Shown here: in pieces, positions 6,190-25,803 of the stretch | Layout: every line of letters starts with the position of its first letter | How positions within the stretch are numbered: the stretch's first letter is position 1 | Origin: Fuscovulum ytuae | GTDB lineage: Bacteria; Pseudomonadota; Alphaproteobacteria; Rhodobacterales; Rhodobacteraceae | Assembly (NCBI RefSeq): GCF_029953595.1 | Contig: NZ_CP124535.1 | Location: 3,145,001-3,209,000 of the forward strand | Direction of reading: 5' to 3' | Length of the DNA: 64,000 nt | Position numbers and translations under genes: made by a program | Notes under the pieces: generated by a model | What the model was told of the DNA's origin: nothing | The model's database searches: none | What the model saw: only the letters and a program-made list of their open reading frames with translations

Positions 6190-6196
6190 TCCTGCC

Positions 6197-6245: not shown

Positions 6246-6259
6246 TCCCGCAGGTGCGA

Positions 6260-9868: not shown

Positions 9869-10484
9869 GGCGATGGCCTAGCACGGGGCGGGGGAAAGGC
9901 CAATCGGTTTGGGGGGAACGCTGCCGTCGAAGGGGACAGGTCATCCGGCCCGATGGCTTGGCCATCGCATGTCCGGCGAAGTGGATCGTCCAAGAGAAGA
10001 TCATCGGGGCGTTTCTTACCCTTGGGGATATTCCCGGACAGACGGCGAACAGATTGCCGAGCGTTACCTTTAATGGCGCGTCCCTTCTGTGTTTTCTGTC
10101 GACAAACATCCTTGGAGACGCGATCAGTCCAAATCTGCGCAAGGAAGGACCACAGGGAATGGAGAAGTTTCACAAGCTTCTTCGCCCCTCCGGCGCGTTT
10201 TTCTGGGAGCGAACTGCAAGCGGATTGCACCGAGATGTGCAGGCCTAAGCAGCCGAACTGTGGCGGTCTATCGAGGGTGGCGGCGCGGTCGGTGTGATCC
10301 TGCCTCCGGCTTTGATGACGCCTGCCGACGTTCTTGAATTGTGTCGTCGACACGCGCGCCCAGAAAAGACGGCAGAACCCGCGCTGGAGCAGATTGGCTG
10401 ATCGTCGGCTTTTGAGGCCGGTTTGCAATGACTGCGCGTTGCAAGGCAGTTTCCGCAAGCAAGAATGGCGGCTAAGGTCCCGCC
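9869..10484. other. Gene-poor 616-bp stretch between rnr and the LysR gene
   Basis: No reading frame here resembles a known family, none has a good ribosome site, and the open frames on both strands have low-complexity or basic translations typical of chance. The part from about 10020 to 10250 is visibly richer in A/T than its surroundings. It marks the junction between conserved housekeeping genes and the catabolic island. The last 60 bp carry the TTGCAA repeats listed separately. It may hold the remnant of a deleted gene or an unannotated RNA. Confidence 0.5.
10423..10444. promoter_or_regulatory. Candidate LysR operator: two TTGCAA repeats
   Basis: TTGCAA occurs at 10423-10428 and again at 10439-10444, 16 bp apart, ending 40 bp before the LysR start codon. 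Each hexamer is itself palindromic. A further TTGCAA lies at 17386-17391, in the leader just before the flavoprotein gene. Autoregulation from such a position is normal for LysR proteins, but the assignment is inference. Confidence 0.3.
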
Positions 10485-11474
10485 ATGTCCGACGATGCGA
10501 ACCGTATACAGTCCGAACTGACCCTGCGCGGTTTGCGGGTCTTTGTGGCGTTGGAGGAGACCGGTTCCATCGCGGGGGCCGCGCAGCGGCTTGGCGGGTC
10601 CTCGTCGGGCGTCAGCCAGCATATCACCGCGCTGGAAGCCGCCATCGGCGCGAAACTTTTCGATCGCCGCGCCAAGCCGGTCACATTGACACCCGCGGGT
10701 CAGGTCCTTCGCGCCCATGCCCACCGTATTCTGAACGTCGTGTCCGAAGCGCAAGCCGAACTGGCAGAAATTAGCATGACCAGCCTGCCGCAACTGAACC
10801 TTGCGATCATCGACGACCTTGATGCGTCATTGACGCCGGTGCTGGTGTCTGCCTTGCAGGCGCGGTTTCGCAAATGCTTTGTCCATGCCTTTTCTGGCAG
10901 GTCGGACCAGATCATCGAGCGTCTGAACGCGCGTGAGGCGGATATTGGCGTGACCGCCCTTCTGCCTGCCGATACGACGACGTTCCAATCCGCGCAGATA
11001 CTTCGTGAGGCCTTCATCCTTGTCACGGCGAAAGGCGCGATAGGGCCCGGTTCCGACCCGCGCGAGGCGCTGACCCGGCTGCCCTTCGTCCAGTATTCCG
11101 AGACGATGCCCCTTGGCCAGAAGGTCGCGCAGCACCTCAAACGGGTGAAGCTGAACGTCCCGCGCCGCTTTGCCTTTGAGGCGACGCGATCAGTTCTGGC
11201 AATGGTGGTGCAGACCGGTGGCTGGACGCTGACAACGCCCTTGAACCTTTTGGATGCAGAGCGATTCATCCCGATGCTGGACATCCTTCCTTTGCCCTTT
11301 GCAGGAGAGACGCGGCACGTCCACCTTGTTGCCCGGGCGGAGGAGTTGGGTCACTTGCCCGAAGCGCTGGCCCGCGATTGCCGCCGCATCCTGCGCGACG
11401 TTTTGATCCCCCGCTTTGTCGCCATTGCTCCGGGTTTCGAAACGGCGATTGAGGTGGCGGAGGATGAAGCCTAG
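10485..11474 (+). CDS. LysR-family transcriptional regulator
   Basis: A 329-residue regulator. The N-terminal winged helix-turn-helix spans about 10-70 (LRVFVALEETGSIAGAAQRL, then SQHITALEAAIGAKLFDRR and LTPAGQ). The rest is a periplasmic-binding-protein-like effector domain (about 95-310). It ends convergently with the racemase-like gene, sharing a 4-bp CTAG that holds both stop codons. Its position at the edge of the catabolic operon makes it the likely inducer-responsive activator of the operon and of the divergent importer genes. The inducer would be the substrate or an intermediate; this is inference from position. Confidence 0.88.
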   Translation: MSDDANRIQSELTLRGLRVFVALEETGSIAGAAQRLGGSSSGVSQHITALEAAIGAKLFDRRAKPVTLTPAGQVLRAHAHRILNVVSEAQAELAEISMTSLPQLNLAIIDDLDASLTPVLVSALQARFRKCFVHAFSGRSDQIIERLNAREADIGVTALLPADTTTFQSAQILREAFILVTAKGAIGPGSDPREALTRLPFVQYSETMPLGQKVAQHLKRVKLNVPRRFAFEATRSVLAMVVQTGGWTLTTPLNLLDAERFIPMLDILPLPFAGETRHVHLVARAEELGHLPEALARDCRRILRDVLIPRFVAIAPGFETAIEVAEDEA

Positions 11475-12124
11475 CTGAGCGCGAAATCTCGGATTGCCCC
11501 GACCAGACAATCCAGACTGTCCGTGAAGGGCACGGTCAGCGACCCGGTCAGGAGCGACAGTTCGGTGCAGGCGATAAGAACATGTCCCTCGGCCGCCTTG
11601 GCCAGCGCGGACATTTCTGCATGCGCCTCTGGCCCGGTATCGCCCGTCTTGACGCGACGGATCAGCGACAGGACCGGGCCCTCATCTTTGGGCCAGACCG
11701 GCGTGATGCCGGCCTGTGCAAAATGCGCGTCAAAGGCCCCTGTCAGGCGAATGGCGGGCGAGGCGAGCATAGAAACCCGCCCCTTCGGCAAGGCGGCCAC
11801 CGTCGCCAGCCGCATGTCGAGGAAGGGCAAAGATGTGGCTGCCATGATCTGTGGTGCATAGGCGTGGGCGGTGTTGCAGGGCATGGCCAGCGCCTGTGCC
11901 CCTGCGGCCGCCAGATCGCGCGCCATCTGTGCCAGCACCGGGCTTGGATCTTCGCCCGTTCCTTCGATCAGCCGGCGGATACGGCTGGGGACGGCGGGAT
12001 TTTGGTGGACGATCAGAGGAATATGATCGGCATCGTCCTGTGCATCGACTGCGGCCAAGAGGCGCTGCATCAGAAGCACTGTCGCCTCTGGTCCCATGCC
12101 GCCAAGGATGCCGACCGTCTTCAT
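11471..12124 (-). CDS. Aspartate/glutamate racemase family protein
   Basis: A 217-residue cofactor-independent two-cysteine racemase-fold protein. The catalytic pair is visible: Cys83 in [10 protein letters not shown] and Cys186 in IACTELS, with [11 protein letters not shown] at the N terminus. Family members invert the alpha carbon of acidic amino acids (Asp, Glu, hydantoins). It is the last gene of the minus-strand operon; its ATG overlaps the stop of the lyase gene as ATGA. I start at 12124 because earlier codons lie inside the lyase gene. With a CuyA-like lyase next to it, conversion of a D-amino acid to the L form before lyase attack is plausible, but substrate is not shown by sequence. 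Confidence 0.85.
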
Positions 12125-13119
12125 GCGTGGGGCAAGACGTGAGTATAGCCGGTCAGACCGATGGCGCCGCCTGTGTGCAGGAAGACGATCCGCTGGCCTT
12201 TGGTGAAATGCCCCTTGCGGCACAGGTCGATCAGACCCGCCGCGCCCTTGCCGGAATAGACCGGATCAAGAAGGATGGCCTCCTGTTTGGCGAAGATGTC
12301 GATAGCCTCAAGCGTGCTGTCTGCCGGAATGCCGTAGCCCTTGCCGATGTAGTCGCAGTTTGCCACGACATCCTCGCGCGCCACGACACTTTGGAGTCCG
12401 ATCTTTTCTTCGGTCGCTTGCGCCAGACGGAAGACGTTGCCCTCTTGAACCTCTTTTGGCGCGCGTACGCCGATGCCGAGCAGGGGAAGCTGCGCGTTCA
12501 GCGCCTTTAGCCCGACGATCAGCCCGGCATGCGTGCCCGCCGATCCGGTGGCCGTCACCATGTGATCGAAGGTCAGCCCGCGCTCCACCATCTGCCCCAG
12601 CAATTCCAGTGCGCAGTTGACATAGCCCAGCGCCCCTGTTGCGTTCGACCCGCCTCCGACGATGGCATAGGGCTTGCGCCCTTCGGCCTTCATCCGCGTG
12701 GCCACGGCGAACATCTCGGCGTTCATGTCCAGACCTGGGCCCCGGTGTTCGATCGTTGCCCCATGAAGCACATCCAAAAGGACATTGCCGTTCAGGCGGT
12801 AGTTCGGCTCGTTATAGCCTGTGCGGTCTTCCAGCAGGATATGGCAATCCATCCCCAGCTTCGCCGCCGCCGCCGCCGTCTGCCGGGCGTGGTTCGATTG
12901 GGTGGCCCCTTGCGTCAGAACGATGTCGGCGCCCTGCGCCACGGCCTCGGCCATCAAGAACTCCAGCTTGCGAGTCTTGTTGCCGCCTGTCGACAGCCCG
13001 GTACAATCGTCGCGCTTGATCCAGATTTCTGGACCCAGCAGGGCCGAGAGGCGGGGCAAGTGCTCTAGGGGTGTGGGTAGGTGGCCAAGTCGGATACGGG
13101 GGAAGCGTGAAAGCTGCAT
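12121..13119 (-). CDS. cuyA: PLP-dependent lyase, CuyA-like (L-cysteate sulfo-lyase / D-cysteine desulfhydrase family)
   Basis: A 332-residue fold-type II PLP enzyme. The PLP lysine is Lys48 in [14 protein letters not shown] and the substrate-carboxylate motif is [12 protein letters not shown] (72-83). The overall sequence, with [17 protein letters not shown] and [16 protein letters not shown], is much closer to my memory of roseobacter CuyA than to E. coli DcyD. CuyA splits L-cysteate into pyruvate, ammonium and sulfite; DcyD splits D-cysteine. ATG 13119 has GAGG 7 nt upstream. It sits between the HpsN-like and racemase genes. Function as a sulfo-lyase needs assay, since ACC-deaminase and desulfhydrase relatives share these motifs. 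Confidence 0.75.
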
Positions 13120-13158
13120 CTGGTGTCCTCTGGACATGTTCTGTCCGCAGTTATCCCA

Positions 13159-13186
13159 CGGGGGTCCGGGGGTGTGAAACCCCCGG
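13159..13186. repeat. GGTCC-flanked G/C hairpin, copy 2
   Basis: CGGGGGT followed by the stem CCGGGGG ... CCCCCGG with loop TGTGAAA. It lies in the 97-bp gap between the HpsN-like and CuyA-like genes, inside the operon. No T-run follows. It could limit read-through or protect the mRNA 3' end, giving different levels of the flanking genes. Confidence 0.6.
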
Positions 13187-13216
13187 CGATATGCCAAGGG
13201 CCAAAAGTGCCGGGAA

Positions 13217-14500
13217 TTAGCGCAGAAATTTCTCCAGTCTGATATCGGCGGTGCGGGCGTGGCCCTCCATGCCCTCAAAGCGGCTGATGCTGGCGGTGAC
13301 GGCTGCCAGTTGCGGCAGCGCCTCGGGCGTCACTTTTTGCCAAGTCACTGTTTTCAGGAACTTGTGGACGGACAGACCGCCCGTGTAACGCGCGGCGCCA
13401 GAGGTGGGCAGGACGTGGTTTGTCCCCGCCGCCTTGTCACCGAAGGCCACGGTGCTTTCTGCGCCGAGGAAGAGGCTGCCATAGGCGGAAAGCCGTGCCT
13501 TCCACCAGTCAAGTTTTGCCGCCTGCACATGCAGATGTTCCGGCGCGATGCTGTCGGCGGTCGCGGCCATTGCTTCAGGCCCATCGCAGAGGATGATCTC
13601 GCCAAGATTGGTCCATGCCGCCTCGGCCGCAGCCCGGTTGGGTTGGGGGAGTTCGGCGGCGAAAAGGGGCGCAAGGCGCGCCACTTCCGTGGCAAGTTCT
13701 GGGCTGTCCGTTACCAGCCAGACCGGCGAATTCGCCCCATGCTCGGCCTGCCCGATAAGATCCCATGCGACGATCACAGGGTCTGCGGAGGAATCCGCGA
13801 TGACCATGCTGTCGGTCGGGCCTGCCACCATGTCGATGCCGACCCGGCCATAAAGAAGACGCTTTGCCTCTGCGACATATTGGTTGCCGGGGCCGACGAG
13901 GATGTCCGCCGGGGGCAGGCCGAACAGGCCAAAGGCCAGCGCCGCCACCCCTTGAATGCCGCCCAGAGCAAGAACGCGGTCTGCGCCGCAATGGCGCAAT
14001 GTGTAGAGGATCGCGTCTGGCACCCCGGCCGGGGCATCGGCGCGCGGAGGTGAGACGGCCGCGATGTGGCGGACCCCCGCAATCTTGGCCGTCGTCACCG
14101 TCATCATGGCGCTTGCGATATGGCTGTAGCGCCCACCCGGCACATAACACCCGGCCGCATTGACCGGGATCAGGCGCTGCCCCGCCGTCAGACCGGGGCG
14201 GAGTTCGATCTCGGTTTCCTTGATGCTGGCACGCTGGGCCGCTGCAAAGCGGGCGATGTTTTCATGGGCATAGGCGATGTCGTCCTTAAGTCTTTGGGGA
14301 ACCCGCGCGCAGGCGGCTTCCATCGCCTCCTCGGACACCACGATGTCACCTTGCCAACGGTCAAGCTCGGCCGACAGGCGTTGCGCCATTGCCTCGCGTC
14401 CTGTTTCCAGTTCGGCCAGAAGGGCCGCGACTGTACCAGACAGGTTTTCCGCATCGGCTGGGGCATTGGCTGCACCACGCTTGAGATAGGTCGGGGTCAT
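13217..14500 (-). CDS. Histidinol-dehydrogenase-family alcohol dehydrogenase, HpsN-like
   Basis: A 427-residue member of the HisD family, but not a histidine-biosynthesis gene by context. It begins with TPTYLKRG, as does HpsN, the sulfopropanediol 3-dehydrogenase of roseobacters. HisD-type active-site residues are all kept: Gln and His in GQAEHG, the Glu-His pair in SIAPEHLHV, Asp in [15 protein letters not shown], and His in [15 protein letters not shown]. Such enzymes make a carboxylate from a primary alcohol in two NAD-linked steps with one zinc. ATG 14500 overlaps the stop of the upstream aminotransferase gene (ATGA). A cysteinolate- or DHPS-like alcohol would be a sensible substrate. Confidence 0.78.
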
Positions 14501-15696
14501 GCAGCCTCCGTCGCGTGGGCTGTTTCCTCGGCGATGATCTGGGCGATCAGCGTGCAGTCGGCAGGGGTGAAGGTCAGAGGCAGGCGCATGTCGAACAGCC
14601 TTGCCAGCACGGCCGAGGTGCGCGGCAAGGGCGCTTGTGGCGCGAAGCGCCAGTGGTCGAAGCGGCTGGTAAAGCCGTGTGGGGCCGCTGCGCCGAACCA
14701 TTTCAGTTCGACCCCCCGGGCTGCACAGGCCGCGATAAAGGCGCGGCAGCGGCCCGGCGTCCAGTCAGGGCCTACAAGGAACTGGATCGATGAACCGACA
14801 AAGCCTTCCTCCTGCGGTCGTCGCGGCAGTGTCACGCCGGGGATGGTGGCAAAACCCACAGCGGCAGCTTGGTAGAGCGCGTTCCACCGCTTTATCCGGT
14901 CGGGCATGCTGGCGATCTGGTCTAGCAGGATCGCGGCGCGGACGGCATCCATACGCGCCGATCCGTTCGGCATCTGATATTTGGCGCTGTCGAAATCCGC
15001 ATCGGCGGGTCCTGCGCCATGGCGGGCATACATCATGTAGGACCCCGATAGCATCGTCGCCCGCGCCATGAACCCTGCGTCAGACGCCACCAAAAGCCCC
15101 CCTTCGCCGGAGTTCATGTGCTTGTAGGTTTGGGTCGAGAAACAGCCTGCAAGGCCGAAGGTGCCGCTTGACCGGCCCTTCCACGTTGCCCCCATCGTAT
15201 GCGCGCAATCCTCGATCAGGATCAGGTCATGGCGGGCACAGATCGCGGTTACCGCCGCCATATCGGGCAGATGCCCACGCATGTTGGACAGCAATAGTGC
15301 CTTCGCTCCTGCGCCGTAGGCCTTGCTCTCTAGATCGGCAAGATCAGGGCGCAACTGATCGGTCGTTTCGACCAGCACTGGCACAGCACCCACCAGCGCA
15401 ATCGCGCCGGGCACAGGTGCGAGCGTGAAGGCGTTGGTCAGGACGCGGTCCCCCGGCCCGATCCCGGCGGCGCGCAGAGCAATCTGCATCGCTTGCCCGC
15501 CCGAGGTGACGGCTAGGCAATAGGGTTGACCGATATAGTCGGCAAAGGCGCGTTCTAGAGCGGCCACCGATCCGGTTTCGCCCGGATCGACGTTGTATCG
15601 GTGCAGTCGCCCGCTGCGCAGCACCTCGACGGCGCGGGTGATGCCGGCCTCGGAAATCGGCTCTTGCTGGGTAAAGCTTTTGCCGAACCGTTCCAT
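14497..15696 (-). CDS. DegT/DnrJ/EryC1-family PLP aminotransferase
   Basis: A 399-residue fold-type I enzyme. The PLP lysine is Lys192 in FSTQTYKHMNSGEGG, and the ring-nitrogen Asp is Asp163 in LIEDCAHTMGA. The usual members act on keto-sugars, but no sugar-nucleotide or glycosyltransferase gene is nearby. In this operon it more likely transaminates or deaminates an amine or amino-alcohol intermediate. Its start codon directly follows the stop of the MttB-like gene (TGA then ATG), and its end overlaps the HpsN-like start, so the operon is translationally coupled here. Substrate unknown. Confidence 0.82.
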   Translation of the reverse strand: MERFGKSFTQQEPISEAGITRAVEVLRSGRLHRYNVDPGETGSVAALERAFADYIGQPYCLAVTSGGQAMQIALRAAGIGPGDRVLTNAFTLAPVPGAIALVGAVPVLVETTDQLRPDLADLESKAYGAGAKALLLSNMRGHLPDMAAVTAICARHDLILIEDCAHTMGATWKGRSSGTFGLAGCFSTQTYKHMNSGEGGLLVASDAGFMARATMLSGSYMMYARHGAGPADADFDSAKYQMPNGSARMDAVRAAILLDQIASMPDRIKRWNALYQAAAVGFATIPGVTLPRRPQEEGFVGSSIQFLVGPDWTPGRCRAFIAACAARGVELKWFGAAAPHGFTSRFDHWRFAPQAPLPRTSAVLARLFDMRLPLTFTPADCTLIAQIIAEETAHATEAA

Positions 15697-17235
15697 TCAG
15701 GGCTCCAGCCGGATCGGAAACTCGGCGCGCATCCGTGCCTCGGCTTCGGGCGTCAGATAGGTGGGGTGGTGCGTCTCCAGCACACGCCGCGCGGCGGCCT
15801 TGGCGCGGGTCCATGCGTCGGGGCGGCCTTTCTCGTCCCATGTCACCGGTGCGTCGCGGTCGGCGATTGTCGGGTAGAAATAATCTCGCTGCATCGCCGC
15901 GATGGTATGCGCGCCGCCAAGGAAGTGGCCGGGACCGAGGACGGCCTCGCAGATAGCGTCATAGCCGAGCGTTTCCTCATTCACCTCTACCCCGCGGAGG
16001 GTGCGATAAATGAGGGAATGCATCTCGTCGTCGAGGATGAAGGCCTCAAAGGACGCGCCGAGAAGAGACGCCATCATGCCGGAGGATTCGTAGATCAGGT
16101 TCCCCCCTGCGAGGGCCGCAGCCAGCGAGGAAATCCCCTTTTCCGCCCCATATTGTGCGTCCGGCACCTTGGCGTCGGTCATGCTGGACGCGACGCCCGA
16201 GGGCAGCCCGATCCAGTTCGAAATCTGTGCCGAAGCCGCGTTCATCACACTGATTTCGCCACCGCCCCCGACAAAGGACCCGGTGCGCAAGTCCACGACG
16301 AGCGGCCAGTTCGAAAACACCATCGGATGGCCGGGCTTGATCACGTTGACCATGATCAGGCTTGCCAGTGTCTCGGCCAAGGATTGCGCAAGGAAGCCGG
16401 CCAGCGTTGCGGGCGCCGTGGCCCCCGACTGCGCGGCGGTTATACAAGACAGGGGCAGGCCGTGTTCGATGCAGGCCAGAGTGACCATCACCGCATCCTC
16501 GCCATAGCGCATGGGAGAGATCATTGGTGAGATATGCGCCTTCAGAAACGGCGTGGCGCGGAACAGGCCCGATGCCCCGTCGCCCCCCAGCCCGATGTCC
16601 ACCATCCGCATGATCGGCGCGACATGATCGTGGATGGTGAAGGAAGTGGCGACGGGTTTTGTCGTCCCCTTCATCAGGGCAAAGACGGTGTTGACGTCCA
16701 GATCATAGATATCGGGCAAGTCCGTCGCCACGCAGCATCGGGTAAACCAGCTGACATTGGTCAAGGTGTCTTGCAACCGGGTGAAGTCGTAAAGGTCGCG
16801 AAGGGTGGAGGGGCGGTAGCCGCCGCTGTCGATATCCAATGTAAGGACGGCTGCGCCCCCGGTGCCAAGATGTACGGCGTCTCCGCCCACTTCGATCGAA
16901 CGGGCCGGATCGCGGCCGTGAAAGGTGAAGGTCTTGGCAGACAGAGCGATGACACGTTCGACCAAGTCGCGCGGAAAAAACACGCGCCCGTCACCGAAGG
17001 TTGCGCCCGCCGCCCGGAATGGCTTGACCATGATCTCCGGCACCTCGCCGACGCCGAGGTCAGAGAGCAGCCGCAATGCGGTGCCGTAGATCGCCTGCAT
17101 GTCGGCCTCGGACAGGGGGCGATACTGGCCGCCGCGCTGACCCGGTGGGCAGGGATTGACGGCTGGCGGCAGGGCCCGTTTCGCGACCCGGTCTGCCCTT
17201 CCCCCGCTCCGCCGCCCGGTCTGACCGTCGTTCAT
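15697..17235 (-). CDS. MttB-family methyltransferase without pyrrolysine (trimethylamine methyltransferase-like)
   Basis: A 512-residue TIM-barrel protein of the MttB superfamily. The frame is open throughout, so no in-frame amber encodes pyrrolysine; it belongs with the non-Pyl branch that includes glycine betaine and proline betaine demethylases. Typical stretches include GTGGAAVLTLDI, GLPSGVASSMTDAKVPD and the C-terminal LGGAHTIAAMQRDYFYP. Known non-Pyl members pass a methyl group from a quaternary amine to a corrinoid protein, but no corrinoid protein gene is in this window. It is the first gene of the minus-strand operon; GGAGAG lies 4 nt before ATG 17235. A second 512-residue MttB-like protein is encoded at 45582-47120. 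Confidence 0.82.
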   Translation of the reverse strand: MNDGQTGRRSGGRADRVAKRALPPAVNPCPPGQRGGQYRPLSEADMQAIYGTALRLLSDLGVGEVPEIMVKPFRAAGATFGDGRVFFPRDLVERVIALSAKTFTFHGRDPARSIEVGGDAVHLGTGGAAVLTLDIDSGGYRPSTLRDLYDFTRLQDTLTNVSWFTRCCVATDLPDIYDLDVNTVFALMKGTTKPVATSFTIHDHVAPIMRMVDIGLGGDGASGLFRATPFLKAHISPMISPMRYGEDAVMVTLACIEHGLPLSCITAAQSGATAPATLAGFLAQSLAETLASLIMVNVIKPGHPMVFSNWPLVVDLRTGSFVGGGGEISVMNAASAQISNWIGLPSGVASSMTDAKVPDAQYGAEKGISSLAAALAGGNLIYESSGMMASLLGASFEAFILDDEMHSLIYRTLRGVEVNEETLGYDAICEAVLGPGHFLGGAHTIAAMQRDYFYPTIADRDAPVTWDEKGRPDAWTRAKAAARRVLETHHPTYLTPEAEARMRAEFPIRLEP

Positions 17236-17413
17236 CGTTCTCTCCGATATTCAGCGCCATAGGAGGGGCATGCCACAGGCGGTGACAACGCAGAAGCGTC
17301 TGGTTCACACGAATTGATCGCGCCCTTCGCTTTTCCTGAACCCCCGGGGCGTTCATTGACGAAGCCAAGTCCCTTGACGCTTGATTTTGCAACAAGAGGC
17401 AGGAGTGTCCGGT
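17236..17413. promoter_or_regulatory. Divergent control region of the catabolic island
   Basis: This 178-bp gap separates the starts of the MttB-like operon (minus) and the flavoprotein gene (plus), so it should hold both promoters. Two TTGACG hexamers, at 17358 and upstream near 17346, could serve as -35 elements for the plus strand, but no clear -10 follows. TTGCAA at 17386-17391 matches the repeats before the LysR gene. No strong hairpin is seen. Confidence 0.4.
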
Positions 17414-19834
17414 ATGAAGACCCAGACCCGCGTGGTGGTGATCGGCGGCGGCATTGCAGGGTGTTCAACCCTGTATCATTTGACTCAGGAAGGCTGGACC
17501 GATGTCGTCCTGATCGAACGCAACGAACTGACATCGGGCACCACCTGGCATTCAGCCGCGCAGGTCACCAACTTCGGGATGACGCAGACGATGGTGGGCC
17601 TAAAGAGCCATTCCATCAAGCTTTACAAGGAATTGGCAGCCGATCCCGACTATCCGATCAACTATCACCACGGTGATGGGGGTATTCGTCTCGCAAATTC
17701 TGAAACGACCATGGACGGCTATCGCCACTTCGCCAGTCAAGCCAAGGTGATGGGGGTGGATTTCGAGATCATCGATGCCGCCGAATGTGCGCGCCGCCAT
17801 CCGCTGATCACTACTGACCGGCTGATCGGTGGACTGTGGGATCCGCTGGATGGCGACATTGACCCCGCACAACTCTGCCAGGCGCTGGCGCGGCGTGCGC
17901 GCAAGGCCGGAGCGGAAGTCTATCGGAACACGCCCGTCACCGGCCTTTCGCAACTTAAGGATGACAGTTGGATCGTCCATACCGAACAAGGCGACATTGC
18001 CTGCGAGATCGTCGTTAACGCCTGCGGCTATCGCGTGAATGAGGTGGGCGCGATGATGGGCGTGCACCACCCCGTCGCCTCGATGGAGCATCAGTATTTC
18101 CTGACCGAGCCAATCCAAGGGATCATCGACTTCGGGAAACGCGTACCGCTGCTGCGATGCCCGATCGACGATTTCTATTCGCGGCAAGAGAAGCAGGGCC
18201 TTCTCGTTGGCTTTTACGAACAGGATTGCCGGACTTGGGGGCTGGACGGGATCGACCCGAACTTTGTCAACGCGCTATGCCCTAGCGACACCGACCGTGT
18301 TCTTCCTGTGCTGGAGAACGTCTTCAAGCGCATGCCTGCGCTGGCCGAGGTCGGCATCCACACCATCGTGAACGGCCCGATCACATATTCTATCGATGGG
18401 GCGCCCCTCGTCGGCCCGATCCCCGGCAAGCGAAATGCCTTCTGCATCATCGGCTTGCGGGCTGGAATTGGGGAAGGCGGTGGGCATGGCTGGCTGCTCG
18501 CCCAACAAATCGTGCATGGCGAGGCAGAATATGACACTTGGGTTACCGATCCGCGTCGCTTTACCGGCCATGCGAATGTGGAACTCACGGCGCTGAAGGC
18601 GATTGAGGACTATCAGAACGAGTTCCGTTTCCACCTGCCGCATGAACACCGCCCGGCAGGCCGCCCGATGAAGACCACGCCCTTGACCCCAATCCTCGCG
18701 GCGGAAGGGGCGGAGTTCGGCGTGGTCAATGGCTGGGAGAGGATGGCCTACATCAAGCCTAGGCCCGATTTCCACGAAACCCACAGCTTCCGCTTCAACG
18801 AGACGTTCGACGTGGTGGCAGAAGAAGTCCGGGCCGTGCAGACCGGGGTGGGGTTGACCGAAGTCAGCGGTTTCAATCGGTTCGAGATCACCGGCTTGGG
18901 GGCGCAGGACTGGCTCGACAGCATGTTCTGCGGGCGGGTGACGCGGAAGGTGGGGAAGGTTGGCCTTGGTTATCTTTTGAATCACCATGGCAACATCAAG
19001 GGAGAGGCCACGCTGGCCAATATCGACGAGGGCATAATCTGGTATGGATCGGCTGCCGCGTCGGAATATCACGACATGGACTGGCTTACGGCGCATCTAC
19101 CGAAGGACGGGGCGGTCCGCATTCGGTCACTGACGAATGATTACACCATCCTTGTTCTTGCCGGTCCGAAGTCGCGCGAGGTGTTGTCGGCAGCCGCGCG
19201 CGGTGACTGGTCGGCTACAGCCTTTCCTTGGTTATCCGTGCGCCGTGCCTTTGTGGGGATCGCGCCTGCGGTGGTGATGTCGGTCAGCTTCTCGGGCGAG
19301 TTGGCCTACGAAATCCACGTCCCGAACGCCCAGCTTTATGCGGCCTATCTGGCCTTGCGGAAGGCAGGTGAGGCGCATGGATTGCGGCTCTTTGGTTCTT
19401 ACGCCGTTGAATCCATGCGGCTGGAAAAGGGGTATCGGCACTGGAAGGCTGATTTGGTCACGGAGTTCGACCCCTTTGAGACCGGTCTGGCACGGTTCGT
19501 TAGGATGGATAAGCCCGCATTTATTGGCAAGGCTGCGCTGGAAAGAAGGGTCGCCGCAGGACCCCGCCGCGCCTTTGTGTCCATGGTGCTGGATGCTACA
19601 CATGCCACGGCGCATGGCGGGGATGCGATCCTGTCGGAAGGTCGGGTGGTGGGATCGGTCACCTCGGTCGCCTGGGGGCATAGGGTGGGCAGGAACATTG
19701 CCATGGGTTTTGTCGAACCGGCCCTGGCGACTGAGGGTACAAGGCTGTTCGTCGAGGTGATCGGAGAACCGATCTCTGCCGTCGTCGTGCCGGAATGCCT
19801 TTATGATCCGGAGAATGCACGTGTTCGCGCCTAA
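17414..19834 (+). CDS. Dimethylglycine/sarcosine dehydrogenase-like FAD and GcvT-domain protein
   Basis: An 806-residue two-part flavoenzyme. The N-terminal DAO domain (about 1-385) has the FAD motif VVVIGGGIAGCSTLYHL and His46 in TSGTTWHSAAQ, the position of the covalent-FAD histidine in dimethylglycine dehydrogenase. It is followed by an FAO_M linker, then GcvT-type folate-binding domains (about 435-800; FSGELAYEIHVP, ESMRLEKGYRHWKADL). Relatives oxidatively remove an N-methyl group and pass the one-carbon unit to tetrahydrofolate. I start at ATG 17414 because AGGAG lies 8 nt upstream. The substrate is probably a secondary or tertiary N-methyl amine made or used by the divergent operon. Confidence 0.87.
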   Translation: MKTQTRVVVIGGGIAGCSTLYHLTQEGWTDVVLIERNELTSGTTWHSAAQVTNFGMTQTMVGLKSHSIKLYKELAADPDYPINYHHGDGGIRLANSETTMDGYRHFASQAKVMGVDFEIIDAAECARRHPLITTDRLIGGLWDPLDGDIDPAQLCQALARRARKAGAEVYRNTPVTGLSQLKDDSWIVHTEQGDIACEIVVNACGYRVNEVGAMMGVHHPVASMEHQYFLTEPIQGIIDFGKRVPLLRCPIDDFYSRQEKQGLLVGFYEQDCRTWGLDGIDPNFVNALCPSDTDRVLPVLENVFKRMPALAEVGIHTIVNGPITYSIDGAPLVGPIPGKRNAFCIIGLRAGIGEGGGHGWLLAQQIVHGEAEYDTWVTDPRRFTGHANVELTALKAIEDYQNEFRFHLPHEHRPAGRPMKTTPLTPILAAEGAEFGVVNGWERMAYIKPRPDFHETHSFRFNETFDVVAEEVRAVQTGVGLTEVSGFNRFEITGLGAQDWLDSMFCGRVTRKVGKVGLGYLLNHHGNIKGEATLANIDEGIIWYGSAAASEYHDMDWLTAHLPKDGAVRIRSLTNDYTILVLAGPKSREVLSAAARGDWSATAFPWLSVRRAFVGIAPAVVMSVSFSGELAYEIHVPNAQLYAAYLALRKAGEAHGLRLFGSYAVESMRLEKGYRHWKADLVTEFDPFETGLARFVRMDKPAFIGKAALERRVAAGPRRAFVSMVLDATHATAHGGDAILSEGRVVGSVTSVAWGHRVGRNIAMGFVEPALATEGTRLFVEVIGEPISAVVVPECLYDPENARVRA

Positions 19835-20171
19835 GCCGTCCATCCCTGTTCCGCAGGTTGGAGGCGGTGCTGTCGCAGTGTGGCTTGCGGCTGGATATCG
19901 CATGAAAAGGACAGGGCGACATGCCCGCGAAGGTTGGCTGTTCGGCGCGAATGACGGGCATATGGCCTTAGATATCCTTCGCGGACATCGGCATGGTCGG
20001 CGAGAGACGGTACCATGACGCGTCATATGTGCAGATCAATGATGACGGGACAGCCTTCGGGCCGACGATTTGCGTGGGGACGGGGTTACCCAAGGCCAAA
20101 CCCCTAAGCGACAGCGTTGGACAGGTTGGATCCGCGCTCGTATAGTTCACCAAAAACCAGGGAGGAAAATC
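19835..20171. other. 337-bp leader of the ABC importer genes; possible gene remnant
   Basis: Between the flavoprotein and the binding-protein gene. It holds a perfect 12-bp palindrome ATGACGCGTCAT (20025-20036) and the promoter listed below. A 50-codon frame at 19993-20145 has a protein-like composition (YVQINDDGTAFGP, then TICVGTGLPKAKPL) but no ribosome site and no family I know. A stop sits just upstream of it in frame. It may be the tail of a decayed gene. Confidence 0.4.
20117..20146 (+). promoter_or_regulatory. Candidate sigma-70 promoter of the ABC importer
   Basis: TTGGAC at 20117-20122 and TATAGT at 20141-20146 with an 18-bp spacer. Transcription would start near 20153, leaving a short leader before GGAGGA (20161-20166) and GTG 20172. 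Confidence 0.45.
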
Positions 20172-21734
20172 GTGAAAAACCTTATACTTCAGCCGGGTAT
20201 GACTCGGCGCGGCGTCTTGAAGGGCGCCACTGCAATGGCGGCGGCGGGCCTGATCCTGCCTGCGACCATGCAAAGGGCGCGGGCCGAGCCGAAGAAGGGC
20301 GGCGTGTTCCGCCTTGGAATCGGCCATGGCTCGACCACGGATACCTACGATCCGGGCCTGTGGGACCAGCTTTATGTGCAGACCTTTGCGGCGGCGCGCC
20401 ACAACTACCTGATCGAGATCGCAGCGGACGGGTCGCTTGTCGGGGAGATTGCCGAAAGCTGGGAGTCGCCCGATGGCTCGACCTGGATTTTCAAGATCCG
20501 CGAGGGGGTGACGTTCCATTCCGGCAAACCGCTGACCGTCGATGACGTGATTGCATCGCTGAACCACCACCGGGGCGAAGCCTCGACATCGGCGGTGAAG
20601 TCCTATTTCGACCCGGTGACCGACATCAAGGCGGATGGCGGCAATGTTGTCGTTACCCTCGACGCCCCGAATGCGGACTTCCCCTATCTGATGTCGGACT
20701 ACCACCTCGCGATCATGCCGGGCATCGATGGCAAGATCGACGTCACCTCGTCCGACGGCGCAGGGGGCTACATTGTGGAAAGCTACGAGCCCGGCGTGCA
20801 GGCCACGCTGAACCGCAACCCGAACTACTGGAAGAGCGACCGGGCGCATTTCGATCAGCTTATCCTGCTGACGATCATCGATCCGGCCGCCCGACTGAAC
20901 GCGCTGATCACCAACGAGGTCGATACGATCGACCAGGTCGACCCTGCCTCGATCGGGCTTTTGGAAAGCCGGGGCGTGGCCAAGATCCTGTCGATTTCAG
21001 GTAACGCGCATTACACCTTCCCGATGGACGCGCGCGCTGCGCCGTTCAGCGACAACAATGTGCGTCTTGCGCTGAAATATTCCTTCGATCGGCAGGAACT
21101 GGTGGACAAGATCCTGGCCGGCCATGGCTCGGTCTCGAATGACAACCCGATCGGCCCGGCAAACCGGTACTTCTTTGCCGGCATGGAGCAAAAGACCTAC
21201 GATCCCGACAAGGCCAAGTTCCATCTCAAGGAAGCCGGGATGGATAAGCTTGAAGTCACGATTTCTGCGGCAAACGCTGCCTTCTCGGGCGCGGTTGATG
21301 CCGCAGTCCTGATGAGTGAGAAAGCCGCCGCTGCCGGTATCACCATCACCGTGGACCGGGTGCCGGATGACGGCTACTGGGACAATGTCTGGTTGAAAAA
21401 GCCGTTCTGCGCCAGCTACTGGGGCGGGCGGCCGACCGAAGACCAGATGTTCACCACGGCCTATTTGGGTGGTGGGGCATGGAACGAAAGCTTCTGGACG
21501 AATGCGCGGTTCGACGAGCTTTTGGTCGCGGCACGGTCCGAGTTGGACGACACCAAGCGTCGGGCGATGTACGAGGAGATGCAGCAACTCGTCTCCTTCG
21601 AAGGTTCGTCGATCATTCCGATGTACAACAACTATGTGATGGCGGTCTCGAATGCGATCGCTACACCCGAGAAGATCGGCAACAACTGGAACCTCGATGG
21701 TTTCCGCTGCGTCGAGCGCTGGTGGATGGCCTGA
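20172..21734 (+). CDS. ABC transporter substrate-binding protein, peptide/opine family (SBP_bac_5), Tat signal
   Basis: A 520-residue periplasmic solute receptor of the DppA/OppA family. A twin-arginine signal (MTRRGVLKGATAMAAAG, residues 10-26) suggests export in folded form. Family stretches include the N-terminal GGVFRLGIGHG, SWESPDGSTWIFKIREGVTF, the central YSFDRQELVDKILAG and the C-terminal YEEMQQLVSFEGSSIIPMY. The open frame extends upstream, but GTG 20172 with GGAGGA 5 nt before it is the likely start. It is followed by a strong hairpin and then both permeases and the ATPase. The ligand is probably the substrate of the island; class C SBPs also bind opines, betaines and small amines, not only peptides. 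Confidence 0.9.
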   Translation: MKNLILQPGMTRRGVLKGATAMAAAGLILPATMQRARAEPKKGGVFRLGIGHGSTTDTYDPGLWDQLYVQTFAAARHNYLIEIAADGSLVGEIAESWESPDGSTWIFKIREGVTFHSGKPLTVDDVIASLNHHRGEASTSAVKSYFDPVTDIKADGGNVVVTLDAPNADFPYLMSDYHLAIMPGIDGKIDVTSSDGAGGYIVESYEPGVQATLNRNPNYWKSDRAHFDQLILLTIIDPAARLNALITNEVDTIDQVDPASIGLLESRGVAKILSISGNAHYTFPMDARAAPFSDNNVRLALKYSFDRQELVDKILAGHGSVSNDNPIGPANRYFFAGMEQKTYDPDKAKFHLKEAGMDKLEVTISAANAAFSGAVDAAVLMSEKAAAAGITITVDRVPDDGYWDNVWLKKPFCASYWGGRPTEDQMFTTAYLGGGAWNESFWTNARFDELLVAARSELDDTKRRAMYEEMQQLVSFEGSSIIPMYNNYVMAVSNAIATPEKIGNNWNLDGFRCVERWWMA

Positions 21735-21749
21735 TCCCTATTGCTTGAG

Positions 21750-21796
21750 GCCGGGACGCGGGTGGGCAATGCCTGCCCGCGTCCCGGCTGCTTTTT
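21750..21796 (+). terminator. Hairpin with T-run between binding-protein and permease genes
   Basis: A perfect 13-bp stem, GCCGGGACGCGGG (21750-21762) with CCCGCGTCCCGGC (21776-21788), is followed by TGCTTTTT. It lies 15 bp after the binding-protein stop and about 50 bp before the first permease start. Partial termination here would give many binding proteins per membrane complex. Confidence 0.8.
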
Positions 21797-21847
21797 ATCA
21801 AAGGCGGCGCAAGAACCGCCGGGCCTGACGGAAACGGGGGGAAAGAC

Positions 21848-22801
21848 ATGAGCGCCATCCTGGCGATGATCGGGCGGAGACTTCTTCTGGGTCTTCTGAC
21901 GCTCTTTGTGATTTCGGTCGTGATCTTTGGTGCGACGGAGCTTTTGCCGGGTGACCTTGCGCGCGAATTGCTTGGCCAGTCCGCGACCGAAGAAACGCTT
22001 GCCGCCTTGCGGGCGCAACTTGGCCTGAACGAGCCGGCCCCCGTTCGCTATTGGAACTGGCTGACGGGCGTGCTTCATGGCGATTTCGGCGTCTCTATGG
22101 CAACGAAAAAGCCTATCTTGGAATTGGTCGGAACACGCCTGGAACACACGATGTTCCTGGCGCTTTATGCCGCTGCAATGTCGGTGCCGCTGTCGCTGAT
22201 CTTGGGTGTCTTGGCGGCGCTGTGGCGGAACTCAATCTTTGACCGGGCATCGAATTCTCTCGCCTTGACGGCGATCTCGTTTCCCGAGTTCTTCGTGGCT
22301 TACATCCTGATCCTCTGGCTTAGCCAAACGGGCTTTTTCCCGTCCATGGTGCGGATTACCCCGGCCACGACCTTTGGCGACATGCTTTACATGTGCTTCC
22401 TGCCGGCGCTGACACTGACGCTTGTCGTCACCGCGCATATGATGCGGATGACCCGTGCGGCGATCATCAACCTGTTGGCCAACCCCTATATCGAGATGGC
22501 GCGGCTTAAGGGCATGGCCCCGCTTCGTGTCGTGCTGCGCCATGCCGTGCCGAATGCGCTTGCCCCGATCATCAATGTGGTGGCGCTGAACCTTGCCTAT
22601 CTTATTACCGGGGTCGTCGTCGTCGAGGTGGTCTTCGTCTATCCGGGTCTGGGGCAGTTGATGGTGGATGCGGTCACCAACCGCGATATTCCAGTCGTGC
22701 AGGCCATCGCCCTGATCTTTGCGGCCGCATATGTATTGCTGAACCTAATCGCGGATGTGCTCTCGACGATCACCAACCCGCGGCTGATGCATCAGAGGTA
22801 A
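21848..22801 (+). CDS. ABC transporter permease, DppB type
   Basis: A 317-residue inner-membrane permease. Six helices are visible, starting with LLLGLLTLFVISVVIFGATEL at the N terminus. The coupling (EAA) loop reads YIEMARLKGMAPLRVVLRHAVPNA. The N-terminal ELLPGDLARELLGQSATEETLAALRAQLG and on is the usual DppB pattern. GGGGGAAAG precedes ATG 21848. It pairs with the DppC-type gene 4 bp downstream. Confidence 0.92.
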   Translation: MSAILAMIGRRLLLGLLTLFVISVVIFGATELLPGDLARELLGQSATEETLAALRAQLGLNEPAPVRYWNWLTGVLHGDFGVSMATKKPILELVGTRLEHTMFLALYAAAMSVPLSLILGVLAALWRNSIFDRASNSLALTAISFPEFFVAYILILWLSQTGFFPSMVRITPATTFGDMLYMCFLPALTLTLVVTAHMMRMTRAAIINLLANPYIEMARLKGMAPLRVVLRHAVPNALAPIINVVALNLAYLITGVVVVEVVFVYPGLGQLMVDAVTNRDIPVVQAIALIFAAAYVLLNLIADVLSTITNPRLMHQR

Positions 22802-22805
22802 CGGC

Positions 22806-23720
22806 ATGAATGTGATCGTCTTTCTGGTCGCAGCGCTTGCCCTTTTCTTTGTGATTGGCGTTGCGGCGCGCGTCGCAATGAAGAGCCTGGCATCGGAGGC
22901 ACACAAGCCGACTTTCCGCGACATGCCGCTTACCGCGTCCTTCGGACTTGCTGTGATCCTATTCTACGTTCTTGTCGCTGTCTTTGGGCCGTTCCTTGCC
23001 CCCTTTGGCGAGGGAGAGGTCGTCGGTGCCCAATATCTGCCGTGGGCGGCTCCGCATTATCTTGGTACCGACAAGCTTGGGCGCGATATGCTGACACGGC
23101 TGATCTATGGTGCACGAAACACCGTGGGGATTGCCTTTGTAACGACGGCGCTGGCTTTTTTTGTCGGCTCTATCTTGGGCATTTGGGCAGCCTTGGTGGG
23201 TGGGTGGCTGGATCAGTGGACGTCCCGCTTTGTGGATGCGCTTATGGCCATACCGGCTTTGATCTTTTCGCTTCTTCTGCTCACGATCTTTGGCACTTCG
23301 GTTTTGACGCTGATCCTTGTCATCGCGGCTGTGGATGCGACCCGTGTCTTTAGGTTGGCGCGTTCCGTCGCGCAGGGGATTGTCGTGATGGACTACATTG
23401 AAGCGGCGCGTCTGCGCGGCGAGTCGAATTGGCATCTGATCCATCGTGAGATCCTGCCGAATGCCATGGCACCGCTTGTGGCAGAGTTCGGCCTGCGGTT
23501 CTGTTTCGTTTTCCTTTCCATCTCTGCGCTGTCGTTCCTTGGGCTTGGGATCAAGCCGCCAACTGCCGATTGGGGCAGCATGGTGCGGGAGAACGCCACG
23601 CTGATGACCTTTGGTGACATCACGCCGCTGCTTCCTGCCGGAGCGATTGCACTGCTGACCGTGGCAGTGAACTTCGTCGTCGACTGGCAATTGCACCGCG
23701 CCAGCGGATTGAAGGAGTGA
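22806..23720 (+). CDS. ABC transporter permease, DppC type
   Basis: A 304-residue permease with an N-terminal anchor helix (about 4-24) followed by the OppC_N helix and the core of five helices. The motif HYLGTDKLGRDMLTRLIYGAR (about 78-98) is the DppC hallmark, and the EAA loop is YIEAARLRGESNWHLIHREIL. The first helix seems to be an extra segment relative to E. coli DppC. Spacing is 4 bp on either side, so it is in one transcript with the other importer genes. Confidence 0.92.
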   Translation: MNVIVFLVAALALFFVIGVAARVAMKSLASEAHKPTFRDMPLTASFGLAVILFYVLVAVFGPFLAPFGEGEVVGAQYLPWAAPHYLGTDKLGRDMLTRLIYGARNTVGIAFVTTALAFFVGSILGIWAALVGGWLDQWTSRFVDALMAIPALIFSLLLLTIFGTSVLTLILVIAAVDATRVFRLARSVAQGIVVMDYIEAARLRGESNWHLIHREILPNAMAPLVAEFGLRFCFVFLSISALSFLGLGIKPPTADWGSMVRENATLMTFGDITPLLPAGAIALLTVAVNFVVDWQLHRASGLKE

Positions 23721-23724
23721 CCCA

Positions 23725-25341
23725 ATGGAAAAGAAGGTGCTTCTGACCATAAAGGGTCTGCAGATTGAGGGGCGTTCGGGCGATGCGTGGCACCCGATCG
23801 TCAAGGGCGTTGACCTGACCCTTCACAGGGGAGAGGTCCTTGGGCTGATCGGTGAGTCCGGGGCGGGAAAGTCGACGCTGGGTCTGGCGGCGATGGGTTT
23901 TGCCCGCGACGGATGCCGCATCTCGGGCGGGACAATCGACTTTGACGGCATCGATCTGCGTACGGCATCCGAAATTGAGCGCCGAGGCTTGCGCGGAAAG
24001 CGCATCGCTTATGTCGCACAGTCGGCAGCCGCCAGTTTCAACCCTGCGCACAAGCTTATTGACCAATATTGCGAGGCCCCTGTCATTCATCGGGTGATGC
24101 CGCGAGAGAAAGCCGAGGCTGATGCCATTGAGCTTTACCGTCGTATGCGCCTGCCCAATCCCGAGGAGATCGGGTTCCGTTATCCGCATCAGGTTTCGGG
24201 CGGGCAGTTGCAACGGGCGATGACGGCGATGGCCATGGCGTGCCGGCCTGACCTGATCATCTTCGACGAACCGACCACAGCGCTTGATGTCACGACACAG
24301 ATCGAGGTTCTGGCGGCGATCCGCGACATCGTCCGCCAGTTCGGGACAGCGGCAATCTATATCACGCATGACCTTGCCGTGGTGGCGCAGATGGCAGACC
24401 GCATCAAGGTGCTTTTGCGCGGCAACGAGGTGGAAGAAGCGAACACCCGCAAAATGCTGGCCGAGCCGCGTGATGACTATACGAAAAGCCTTTGGGCTGT
24501 CCGCAGCTTTGCCCGCCCGGAACAGCCGTCTGCGACGGGAACTCCGGTCGTTTCGGTGCGGAACGTTACGGCTGGGTATGGCAAGGTCAATGTGCTGACG
24601 GACGTAAGTTTTGATATCCATGCCCGCCGCACGGTCGCCGTGGTGGGCGAAAGCGGGTCAGGCAAGTCCACGACCGCGCGCGTCATCACGGGCCTTCTTC
24701 CGCCGCGAAATGGTGAGGTGCTGTTCAACGGCAAGCCGTTGCCGCCCGAGTTCAGGGCCCGCTCGCGCGACGAATTGCGCCAGTGCCAGATGATCTACCA
24801 GATGGCCGACACTGCCTTGAATCCCAAGCTGCGGCTGCGAGAGCTGATCGGTCGGCCCGCCGAAATGTATCTGGGCCTTAGGGGAAAAGCTCTGGATGAC
24901 CGCATCCGTGACCTGCTCTCATTGATCGAGCTTGACCCCGACAAGTACATTGACCGGCTGCCCGGCGAACTTTCGGGCGGACAGAAGCAGCGGATCGGAA
25001 TTGCGCGCGCCCTTGCTGCCGAGCCGCAGCTGATCATCTGCGACGAGGTGACCAGTGCCCTCGACCAGATTGTGCAAGAGGGCATCCTGAAGCTTCTGGC
25101 CCGGCTGCAAGACGAGTTGAACCTCGCTTACATGTTCATCACCCATGATCTGGCAACGGTAAGGTCCATCGCAGATGAGGTCGTGGTGATGCAGCAAGGT
25201 GTGGTGGTCGAACGGGGGCCCAAGGCGGCGCTCTTTGCGGCCCCGCAAGAGGACTACACCAAGCTGTTGCTATCGTCGGTGCCTGAGATGGACCCGGATT
25301 GGTTGAACCGACTGCTCGCCGCGCGGGGCGAGCTTGCATGA
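23725..25341 (+). CDS. Fused dual ABC ATPase, DppD-DppF type (GsiA-like)
   Basis: A 538-residue protein holding two complete ATPase domains. The first has Walker A GESGAGKST (about 45-53), signature VSGGQLQR and Walker B LIIFDEPTTALD. The second starts near residue 275 with Walker A GESGSGKST, signature LSGGQKQRIGIARA and Walker B LIICDEVTSALD, where Val replaces the usual Pro. Fusion of the two ATPases is common in importers such as GsiA. Last gene of the importer set; a short gap leads to the convergent GNAT gene. Confidence 0.92.
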   Translation: MEKKVLLTIKGLQIEGRSGDAWHPIVKGVDLTLHRGEVLGLIGESGAGKSTLGLAAMGFARDGCRISGGTIDFDGIDLRTASEIERRGLRGKRIAYVAQSAAASFNPAHKLIDQYCEAPVIHRVMPREKAEADAIELYRRMRLPNPEEIGFRYPHQVSGGQLQRAMTAMAMACRPDLIIFDEPTTALDVTTQIEVLAAIRDIVRQFGTAAIYITHDLAVVAQMADRIKVLLRGNEVEEANTRKMLAEPRDDYTKSLWAVRSFARPEQPSATGTPVVSVRNVTAGYGKVNVLTDVSFDIHARRTVAVVGESGSGKSTTARVITGLLPPRNGEVLFNGKPLPPEFRARSRDELRQCQMIYQMADTALNPKLRLRELIGRPAEMYLGLRGKALDDRIRDLLSLIELDPDKYIDRLPGELSGGQKQRIGIARALAAEPQLIICDEVTSALDQIVQEGILKLLARLQDELNLAYMFITHDLATVRSIADEVVVMQQGVVVERGPKAALFAAPQEDYTKLLLSSVPEMDPDWLNRLLAARGELA

Positions 25342-25381: not shown

Positions 25382-25801
25382 TCAGAGCGTCAACACCATG
25401 TCGCGATGGGGGATGCCTGCATCCATGTATTCCGGGCCAGTGGCCGTGAAACCAAGGCGTTCGTAGAAGCCGATGGCGTGCGTTTGACTGCCGAGTTTGG
25501 CGGTCGTCATGCCTTGGGCGCGGAGTTCCGTGAGCGCGGCGCGGATTAGGGCTGCGCCGAGGCCTGTGCCGCGATGGGACTTCAACACGCAGACACGGCC
25601 GATCTTGCCCGTCTTTCCTTGCAGCAGAAGGCGGGCGGATCCGACGGGGGTGTCGTTTTCGGTGGCGAGAAGGTGAAGGGCGGTGTCGTCCTTGTCGTCG
25701 ATCTCATCCTCTTCCGGCACGCCCTGTTCTTCGATGAAGACCACGCGGCGGAGGTGGCGGCAGGTGGTGATGTCGCGGGTGGGGGCAATGTGAATCGTCA
25801 T
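25382..25801 (-). CDS. GNAT acetyltransferase, ElaA-like
   Basis: A 139-residue single-domain N-acetyltransferase. The acetyl-CoA loop is VCVLKSHRGTGLGAALIRAAL (about 70-90), and the N terminus RRVVFIEEQGVPEEDEID is typical of the ElaA/YjcF group. The start is 2 bp after the dapE stop, so it is probably co-transcribed with dapE. Acceptor unknown. Confidence 0.85.
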   Translation of the reverse strand: MTIHIAPTRDITTCRHLRRVVFIEEQGVPEEDEIDDKDDTALHLLATENDTPVGSARLLLQGKTGKIGRVCVLKSHRGTGLGAALIRAALTELRAQGMTTAKLGSQTHAIGFYERLGFTATGPEYMDAGIPHRDMVLTL

Positions 25802-25803
25802 GG

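Follow-up and report, generated by a model that had tools for sequence, protein, structure and literature searches.

A recurrent gene cassette in Fuscovulum ytuae that probably serves the catabolism of an N-methylated C3 aminosulfonate

Which compound is degraded by a gene island that combines enzymes of sulfonate cleavage with enzymes that remove N-methyl groups? This question is raised by a locus of Fuscovulum ytuae, whose genome (4.19 Mb, three contigs, completeness 100) carries such an island at positions 10485–25341 of the 64,000-nt stretch analysed here (the window; positions 3,145,001 to 3,209,000 of contig NZ_CP124535.1). A sequence-only reading had listed a LysR regulator, a CuyA-like lyase, a racemase, an HpsN-like dehydrogenase, a DegT aminotransferase, an MttB-like methyltransferase and a dimethylglycine dehydrogenase (DMGDH)-like flavoprotein, and translation and family searches found all of them in the places given, with every frame open. 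The grouping is more than a chance arrangement, because it recurs in other genomes. Judging from the gene content, we regard the island as a catabolic cassette that probably acts on an N-methylated three-carbon (C3) aminosulfonate, the foremost candidate being N-methylated, perhaps trimethylated, cysteinolate.

The sulfonate genes were identified with curated models and a motif. CuyA, the sole match in the host genome at E 1e-10, scores 527 bits against NCBIfam model NF052482 (cut-off 450), and CuyB scores 246 bits against NF052483 (cut-off 190). The closest solved structure to the HpsN-type enzyme is 8WWE, an (R)-dihydroxypropanesulfonate (DHPS) dehydrogenase (E 6e-163), followed by CpHpsN (8V35), with the true HisD chains behind. 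HpsN proteins are marked by G-R-Y-A/S-H in place of the G-S-A-P-L of HisD (PMC11382572). The window HpsN has GRYSH at residue 123, i.e. the motif of HpsN and not that of HisD, and in the alignment with 8V35 it keeps the catalytic Glu-His pair and the zinc Asp, in agreement with the earlier statement that all catalytic residues are present. The host genome also holds a HisD-fold paralog (G000:C1:1888668-1889942; L051 9671-10981) that is 45–47% identical to the window HpsN and has no GRYxH.

The sequence-only reading had the substrate oxidized to D-cysteate, which was then racemized to L-cysteate for CuyA, and it took the racemase beside CuyA as a hint of a D-configured substrate. According to PMC11382572, CuyB interconverts L- and D-cysteate, the preferred substrate of CuyA is D-cysteate, HpsN is 10^6-fold selective for R-DHPS, and CpHpsN is inhibited by L-cysteate with a half-maximal inhibitory concentration of 2.4 mM. 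By the priority rules, R-cysteinolate should match R-DHPS in its arrangement, and its oxidation would yield R-cysteate, which is L-cysteate. Since the R-specific HpsN would deliver L-cysteate whereas CuyA prefers the D-form, CuyB is needed for the conversion of L- to D-cysteate. The proposed order was therefore the reverse of the one that fits these enzymes, and the racemase had to be given up as a pointer to a D-configured substrate, because CuyA prefers D-cysteate.

The following scheme is our inference for the substrate and the sequence of reactions, for the ligand of the importer and for what MttB, DMGDH and DegT do. The importer would take up the methylated solute. MttB would take one methyl group off the quaternary nitrogen and pass it to a shared MtgC-type corrinoid protein, from which it would go on to tetrahydrofolate, and the DMGDH-like flavoprotein would oxidize the remaining N-methyl groups, passing the carbon to tetrahydrofolate and the electrons to electron transfer flavoprotein (ETF). 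In a four-electron oxidation that uses two NAD+, the HpsN-type enzyme would turn the freed cysteinolate into L-cysteate; CuyB would convert this to D-cysteate, and CuyA would cleave D-cysteate to pyruvate, ammonium and sulfite. DegT may link cysteate or cysteinolate to the matching oxo-compound. Of the earlier proposal of an imported N-methylated solute resembling cysteinolic acid, the sulfonate route survives and the stereochemistry does not; the link of this route to this DMGDH type, and often to MttB, recurs in other loci. The earlier substrate class, with its stereochemistry corrected, is the best explanation.

The DMGDH-like protein bears the domains DAO, FAO_M, GCV_T (the folate domain) and GCV_T_C in the order of dimethylglycine dehydrogenase, and its closest solved relative over the full length is the mitochondrial enzyme (5L46, E 2e-144), from which it differs as a member of a bacterial group linked to sulfonate genes. 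The window MttB scores 358 bits against PF06253 (gathering score 25) and has as closest solved relative the glycine betaine methyltransferase 9YCE (E 3e-59); it reaches 298 of the 525 bits required by TIGR02369 and contains no in-frame stop, and is thus not the pyrrolysine trimethylamine methyltransferase MttB. The host genome has eight PF06253 matches and a single B12-binding_2 match. The latter resembles MtgC and contains a DXHXXG motif; the frame after it looks by eye like DUF1638. In Ruegeria pomeroyi a shared MtgC serves together with MtgD and MetF2, and the presence of as many as seven PF06253 proteins in bacteria of this kind suggests diverse methylated substrates (PMC12478193). A common PF06253 methyltransferase and one shared corrinoid protein are what the island has in common with this MtgB-MtgC-MtgD-MetF2 system for glycine betaine; unlike there, the gene of the window MttB lies divergent to that of a particular DMGDH and has sulfonate genes as its partners.

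In order to see how far the grouping extends, we scanned the genome collection with a DMGDH alignment. The best 80 loci (73–92% identical; several on short contigs) lie in records titled Rhodobacterales, Hyphomicrobiales-type genera and Granulosicoccus. MttB was found in 42 of them, HpsN in 16 and CuyA in 6, and any of HpsN, CuyA and CuyB in 17. DMGDH, CuyA, CuyB and HpsN stand together in 11 of the loci read (the window, L065, L107, L116, L127, L162, L171, L192, L203, L205 and L206), three of which are plasmids. Gene orders vary among these loci, and the HpsN partners of DMGDH occupy at least four places in the HpsN tree (window with L116; L065 with L158; L127; and a group of L162, L171, L107, L192 and others), which suggests that the cassette was assembled repeatedly. 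Neighbouring genes were listed for 79 of the best 80 loci, L190 being left out as its DMGDH frame was not called; many of the neighbour names at the DMGDH, CuyA and DegT loci were assigned by eye. MtgD- and MetF-like genes named in this way lie near DMGDH in 4 of the 79 loci. The LysR protein cluster of the island recurs near DMGDH in 12 further loci, and a locus from a metagenome-assembled genome (L141) combines MttB and DMGDH with an importer of the window type.

Some copies are plasmid-borne. A plasmid of Leisingera methylohalidivorans DSM 14336, typed mobilizable, carries a betaine-type importer, LysR, MttB, DMGDH, CuyA, DegT, CuyB, HpsN and a sulfate-exporter-family gene. In the gammaproteobacterium Pseudomonas sp. 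MPC6 a plasmid typed conjugative holds CuyA, HpsN, DegT, CuyB and DMGDH (65%) in one stretch with Etf, ETF-QO (ETF:quinone oxidoreductase), FolD, PurU, a ProXVW-type importer and a TRAP importer, and sulfite exporter and sulfite oxidase genes lie farther away. The stretch of Paracoccus seriniphilus reads DMGDH, EtfBA, FolD, PurU, a three-gene ABC importer, CuyA, DegT, CuyB and HpsN, followed by a Rieske pair (L205 16820-19206) whose top models are GbcA (469 bits, cut-off 670) and GbcB (338 bits, cut-off 500), both below cut-off. No MttB match was found in this stretch. The first demethylation step may hence be replaceable, the GbcAB-like pair near HpsN possibly taking the place of MttB. The one-carbon genes Etf, FolD and PurU lie near DMGDH on three plasmids. 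Ruegeria SCSIO 43209 has MttB and DMGDH with HpsN ~8 kb away, and the DMGDH stretches on plasmids of Rhodobacteraceae SC52, Mesorhizobium 131-2-1, Roseobacter litoralis and Marinovum algicola gave no match to HpsN or CuyA.

Co-occurrence across 394 family genomes points in the same direction: HpsN is present in 103 of 114 DMGDH-positive and in 95 of 280 DMGDH-negative genomes (odds ratio 18), CuyA in 58 of 114 and 58 of 280. Among 49 genomes with DMGDH loci, drawn from 50 hand-chosen loci of the best 80, an HpsN-like gene was found in 48 (E 1e-90) and CuyA in 24 (E 1e-100). CuyA was rejected as the chief partner of DMGDH, its association being weaker than that of HpsN. In 228 genomes HpsN was associated with the marine marker DmdA (odds ratio 6.9; counted only in those 94 of 117 genomes whose matches were over the cut-off), with a DMGDH paralog of the same genome (8.2) and with this DMGDH (15). 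The DMGDH–HpsN link held in DmdA-positive (9.0) and DmdA-negative (10.5) genomes, and an odds ratio of ~6 was left in a joint model adjusted for DmdA and the paralog.

Several results weigh against a single pathway from methylated solute to sulfite, the first group coming from the loci themselves. No HpsN, CuyA or CuyB lies in the sequence covered at 63 of the best 80 DMGDH loci. The close relatives L114, L115 and L117 (DMGDH 89–92% identical) have no cassette between LysR and MttB or DMGDH; HpsN lies elsewhere in all three of their genomes and CuyA in two of the three. MttB or DMGDH stands beside guanidino-type genes in several Ruegeria and in R. pomeroyi. Three details of these loci may be added: between LysR and MttB, L117 contains a 91-residue DegT match (~7900-8200), perhaps a remnant of a cassette; at several Ruegeria loci MttB-DMGDH adjoin two genes that by eye look like ureohydrolases; and in L196, the R. 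pomeroyi locus, DMGDH and CuyB are preceded by an aminotransferase, a 5-guanidino-2-oxopentanoate decarboxylase and an arginine-deiminase-family gene (5638-13247).

The co-occurrence data contribute a second group. The tests ignore phylogeny; among HpsN-positive genomes CuyA is independent of DMGDH (55 of 103 versus 43 of 95); in the 94 paralog-negative genomes the DMGDH–HpsN link rests on 3 DMGDH genomes (p 0.12); and CuyA is more strongly associated with the paralog (odds ratio 4.3) than with this DMGDH (2.7). Two controls, on 228 genomes each, attribute part of the DMGDH–HpsN association to lifestyle. Moreover, the window HpsN is 58–59% identical to the HpsN of Ruegeria loci with DHPS-type genes, about the same as to many CuyA-linked copies, so that sequence alone cannot name its substrate. 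A literature search by name for methylated cysteinolate or cysteate found no paper.

Could the island then house two neighbouring but separate functions, with HpsN, CuyB, CuyA and DegT handling cysteinolate, and MttB and DMGDH handling a sulfur-free betaine as N-methyl osmolyte? Such a division would fit the 28 of the best 80 DMGDH loci that show MttB only and the 33 that show none of the six scored genes, the latter again counting against a single pathway. It would also fit the betaine-type importers or guanidino genes that flank some DMGDH loci and the CuyA-DegT-CuyB-TauABC-HpsN clusters known without adjoining methyl genes. As physical linkage is a cleaner test than co-occurrence, we compared this DMGDH with the DMGDH paralog of the same genome, using the listed HpsN places and 121 listed CuyA places. 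Seven of 70 DMGDH places but none of 134 paralog places lie within 12 kb of a listed HpsN or CuyA place (one-sided Fisher 0.0005). One of the seven, that of genome G201 at 11.6 kb, was contributed by the set of 121 CuyA places, which yielded no linked paralog. This linkage, specific to the island's type of DMGDH and seen in differing arrangements that include the Pseudomonas plasmid, argues against separate functions, as do the TauABC-like genes within a few genes of DMGDH in 10 of the 79 loci (the top models of a representative set are those of taurine transport, below cut-off). We thus regard two separate functions as unlikely, though as an alternative to be taken seriously.

A methylated cysteinolate as the common substrate has also to be set against another methylated aminosulfonate, such as N-methylated cysteate; HpsN would then act on a different compound that bears no methyl groups. 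Cysteate is the meeting point of CuyA and CuyB, and on the megaplasmid of R. pomeroyi DSS-3 (L196) DMGDH (74%) adjoins a racemase scoring above the CuyB cut-off (276 versus 190 bits), and the annotation of the 22 kb read there lists no HpsN. However, HpsN is a closer companion of DMGDH across genomes than CuyA is, and we consider N-methylated cysteate improbable. Highly improbable, in our view, is the known DHPS route ending in cysteate and CuyA: although the closest solved relative of the dehydrogenase is an R-DHPS dehydrogenase and a DHPS-to-cysteate route has been published (PMC11382572), no hpsO or hpsP match (≥45% identity) was found within 9 kb of the window HpsN, no sulfolactate dehydrogenase is among the identified island proteins, the HpsN rows of DHPS-type clusters group apart, and the N-methyl enzymes would be left without a role.

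The separate position of the DHPS-type rows was seen in a tree of 47 HpsN rows, which were gathered around CuyA or DMGDH and are not a fair sample of all HpsN; rows with stops or matches of ≤330 residues were dropped. GRYxH is present in 44 of the 47, the exceptions being the own-genome paralog in L051 and HisD in L052 and L103. The six rows accompanied by hpsO, hpsP or comD form one supported clade apart from the window HpsN, and only one of the 36 HpsN rows that have CuyA no farther than 9 kb away also has hpsO/hpsP. With the hpsNOP pathway for DHPS in Cupriavidus and Roseobacteraceae (PMC11382572, PMC11131964) the island shares the HpsN fold, GRYSH and the active-site residues, but its HpsN stands without hpsO/hpsP and is tied to CuyA, CuyB and DegT. 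On plasmids of Paracoccus ferrooxidans and Rhodovulum sulfidophilum, HpsN is followed by two dehydrogenase-type genes that we read as hpsO/hpsP-like, and CuyA is not annotated in the stretch.

The sulfonate part of the cassette is found more widely. CuyA has matches in 116 of the 394 family genomes (E 1e-110), and in 60 stretches read around CuyA, HpsN near CuyA and CuyB recurs, frequently with a divergent LysR. By name, again given by eye, the importers in some CuyA loci are of the TauABC, SsuABC, ProXVW or TRAP type, or a YeiH-type gene is present. As annotated, LysR, CuyA-, DegT- and CuyB-type genes, TauABC and an HpsN-type gene lie on plasmids of Ensifer adhaerens and Ancylobacter pratisalsi, with no methyl-removing gene in the stretches read. 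Cysteinolate is an algal solute (PMC8703288), and the simplest reading is that HpsN-CuyA-CuyB(-DegT) degrades it. The known dissimilation of cysteate (Liu et al. 2024, via PMC11382572) uses the same two enzymes, CuyB and CuyA; unlike this plain route, the island is apparently fed by an HpsN-type dehydrogenase and N-demethylating enzymes. In several family genomes (L056-L071) LysR-HpsN-CuyA-CuyB lies between genes that by eye resemble LepA and CobB, and no adjoining importer was seen.

The cassette is real and recurrent. It is new as a combination of known enzyme kinds and not as a kind of system. Much of the exchange between phytoplankton and bacteria runs through sulfonates and betaines, and a recurrent cassette in which demethylation of the betaine type is coupled to the cleavage of a C3 sulfonate predicts one particular metabolite, whose exact masses can be searched for. 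It also proposes substrates for one MttB group and one DMGDH group, and it points to cysteinolate as the substrate of HpsN-CuyA-CuyB clusters that lack hpsO/hpsP. Going further, we offer as a tentative proposal, held with somewhat less than even confidence, that the cassette degrades an undescribed marine betaine, N,N,N-trimethyl-cysteinolate (or its mono- or dimethyl forms), that plasmids have spread it across Alpha- and Gammaproteobacteria, that the importer can be exchanged, as can the enzyme of the first demethylation (MttB or a GbcAB-like Rieske pair), and that its MttB and DMGDH would be the first members of their families with specificity for an aminosulfonate. A direct test is possible in the laboratory strain R. 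pomeroyi DSS-3, which carries DMGDH beside CuyB; a literature search for dimethylglycine dehydrogenase with sulfonate and R. pomeroyi found no paper.

The setting of the island in the genome identifies it as accessory. It is bordered by RNase R (7610–9868) on one side and by a GNAT gene and a DapE-type M20 peptidase (25382–26949) on the other. In Ruegeria marisrubri (L171) RNase R and DapE are separated by ~650 bases that contain no GNAT match, so that, compared with this genome, the island is inserted DNA. CuyA, this DMGDH type and HpsN were not found at the thresholds used in G104, the only genome sampled from the same genus. On the minus strand, MttB, DegT, the HpsN-type gene, CuyA and CuyB follow one another with four-base overlaps at DegT/HpsN and CuyA/CuyB; the plus strand carries LysR, the DMGDH-like gene and an Opp-type importer of four proteins, a binding protein, two permeases and one double ATPase (Table 1). 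The sequence-only reading had described a complete importer of the peptide/opine class. The opine class is not established, as the binding protein scores 46 bits against the opine-type (CntA) model (cut-off 800) and 139 bits in its top NCBIfam match (cut-off 600).

Table 1. Genes of the island, in window coordinates; starts were refined for CuyB, CuyA, the HpsN-type gene, DegT, MttB, DMGDH and the binding protein
Feature	Position	Strand	Basis
LysR-family regulator, probable local regulator	10485..11474	+	PF00126, PF03466
CuyB, cysteate racemase, 217 aa	11471..12124	-	NF052483; refined start
CuyA, D-cysteate sulfo-lyase, 332 aa	12121..13119	-	NF052482; refined start
HpsN-type dehydrogenase (HisD fold), proposed cysteinolate-to-cysteate enzyme, 427 aa	13217..14500	-	8WWE, GRYSH
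DegT-family PLP (pyridoxal phosphate) aminotransferase, 399 aa	14497..15696	-	PF01041
MttB-superfamily methyltransferase, non-pyrrolysine, 512 aa	15697..17235	-	PF06253
DMGDH-like flavoprotein, proposed N-demethylase, 806 aa	17414..19834	+	DAO, FAO_M, GCV_T, GCV_T_C
SBP_bac_5 solute-binding protein, 511 aa	20199..21734	+	PF00496; refined start
ABC permease, DppB/OppB type	21848..22801	+	PF00528, PF19300
ABC permease, DppC/OppC type	22806..23720	+	PF00528
Double ABC ATPase, OppDF type in one protein	23725..25341	+	PF00005 in two stretches, PF08352

Matches to the DegT aminotransferase at E 1e-60 or better, all paralogs counted, occur in 209 of 248 family genomes, and DegT was rejected as an island-specific marker. 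In a tree, the DegT of the window and other CuyA-linked copies fall outside a supported clade (100/100) of 26 unlinked copies, where unlinked means no CuyA, CuyB or HpsN match in the sequence covered, mostly 1.5 kb flanks; one unlinked row, L027, was placed among the CuyA-linked ones. The partial sequences L117 and L125 were dropped from this tree, and L002, L010 and L013 were omitted as they are the same genes as L035, L036 and L037. The host member of the unlinked clade (L038, G000:C1:1322043-1323215) lies beside glmU/glmS, as judged by eye.

Elsewhere in the window, a second MttB-superfamily gene (45558–47120) scores 559 bits against PF06253, and just beyond the island, at 27148–28728, lies a gene whose product combines a Hint domain with a bacterial Ig domain.

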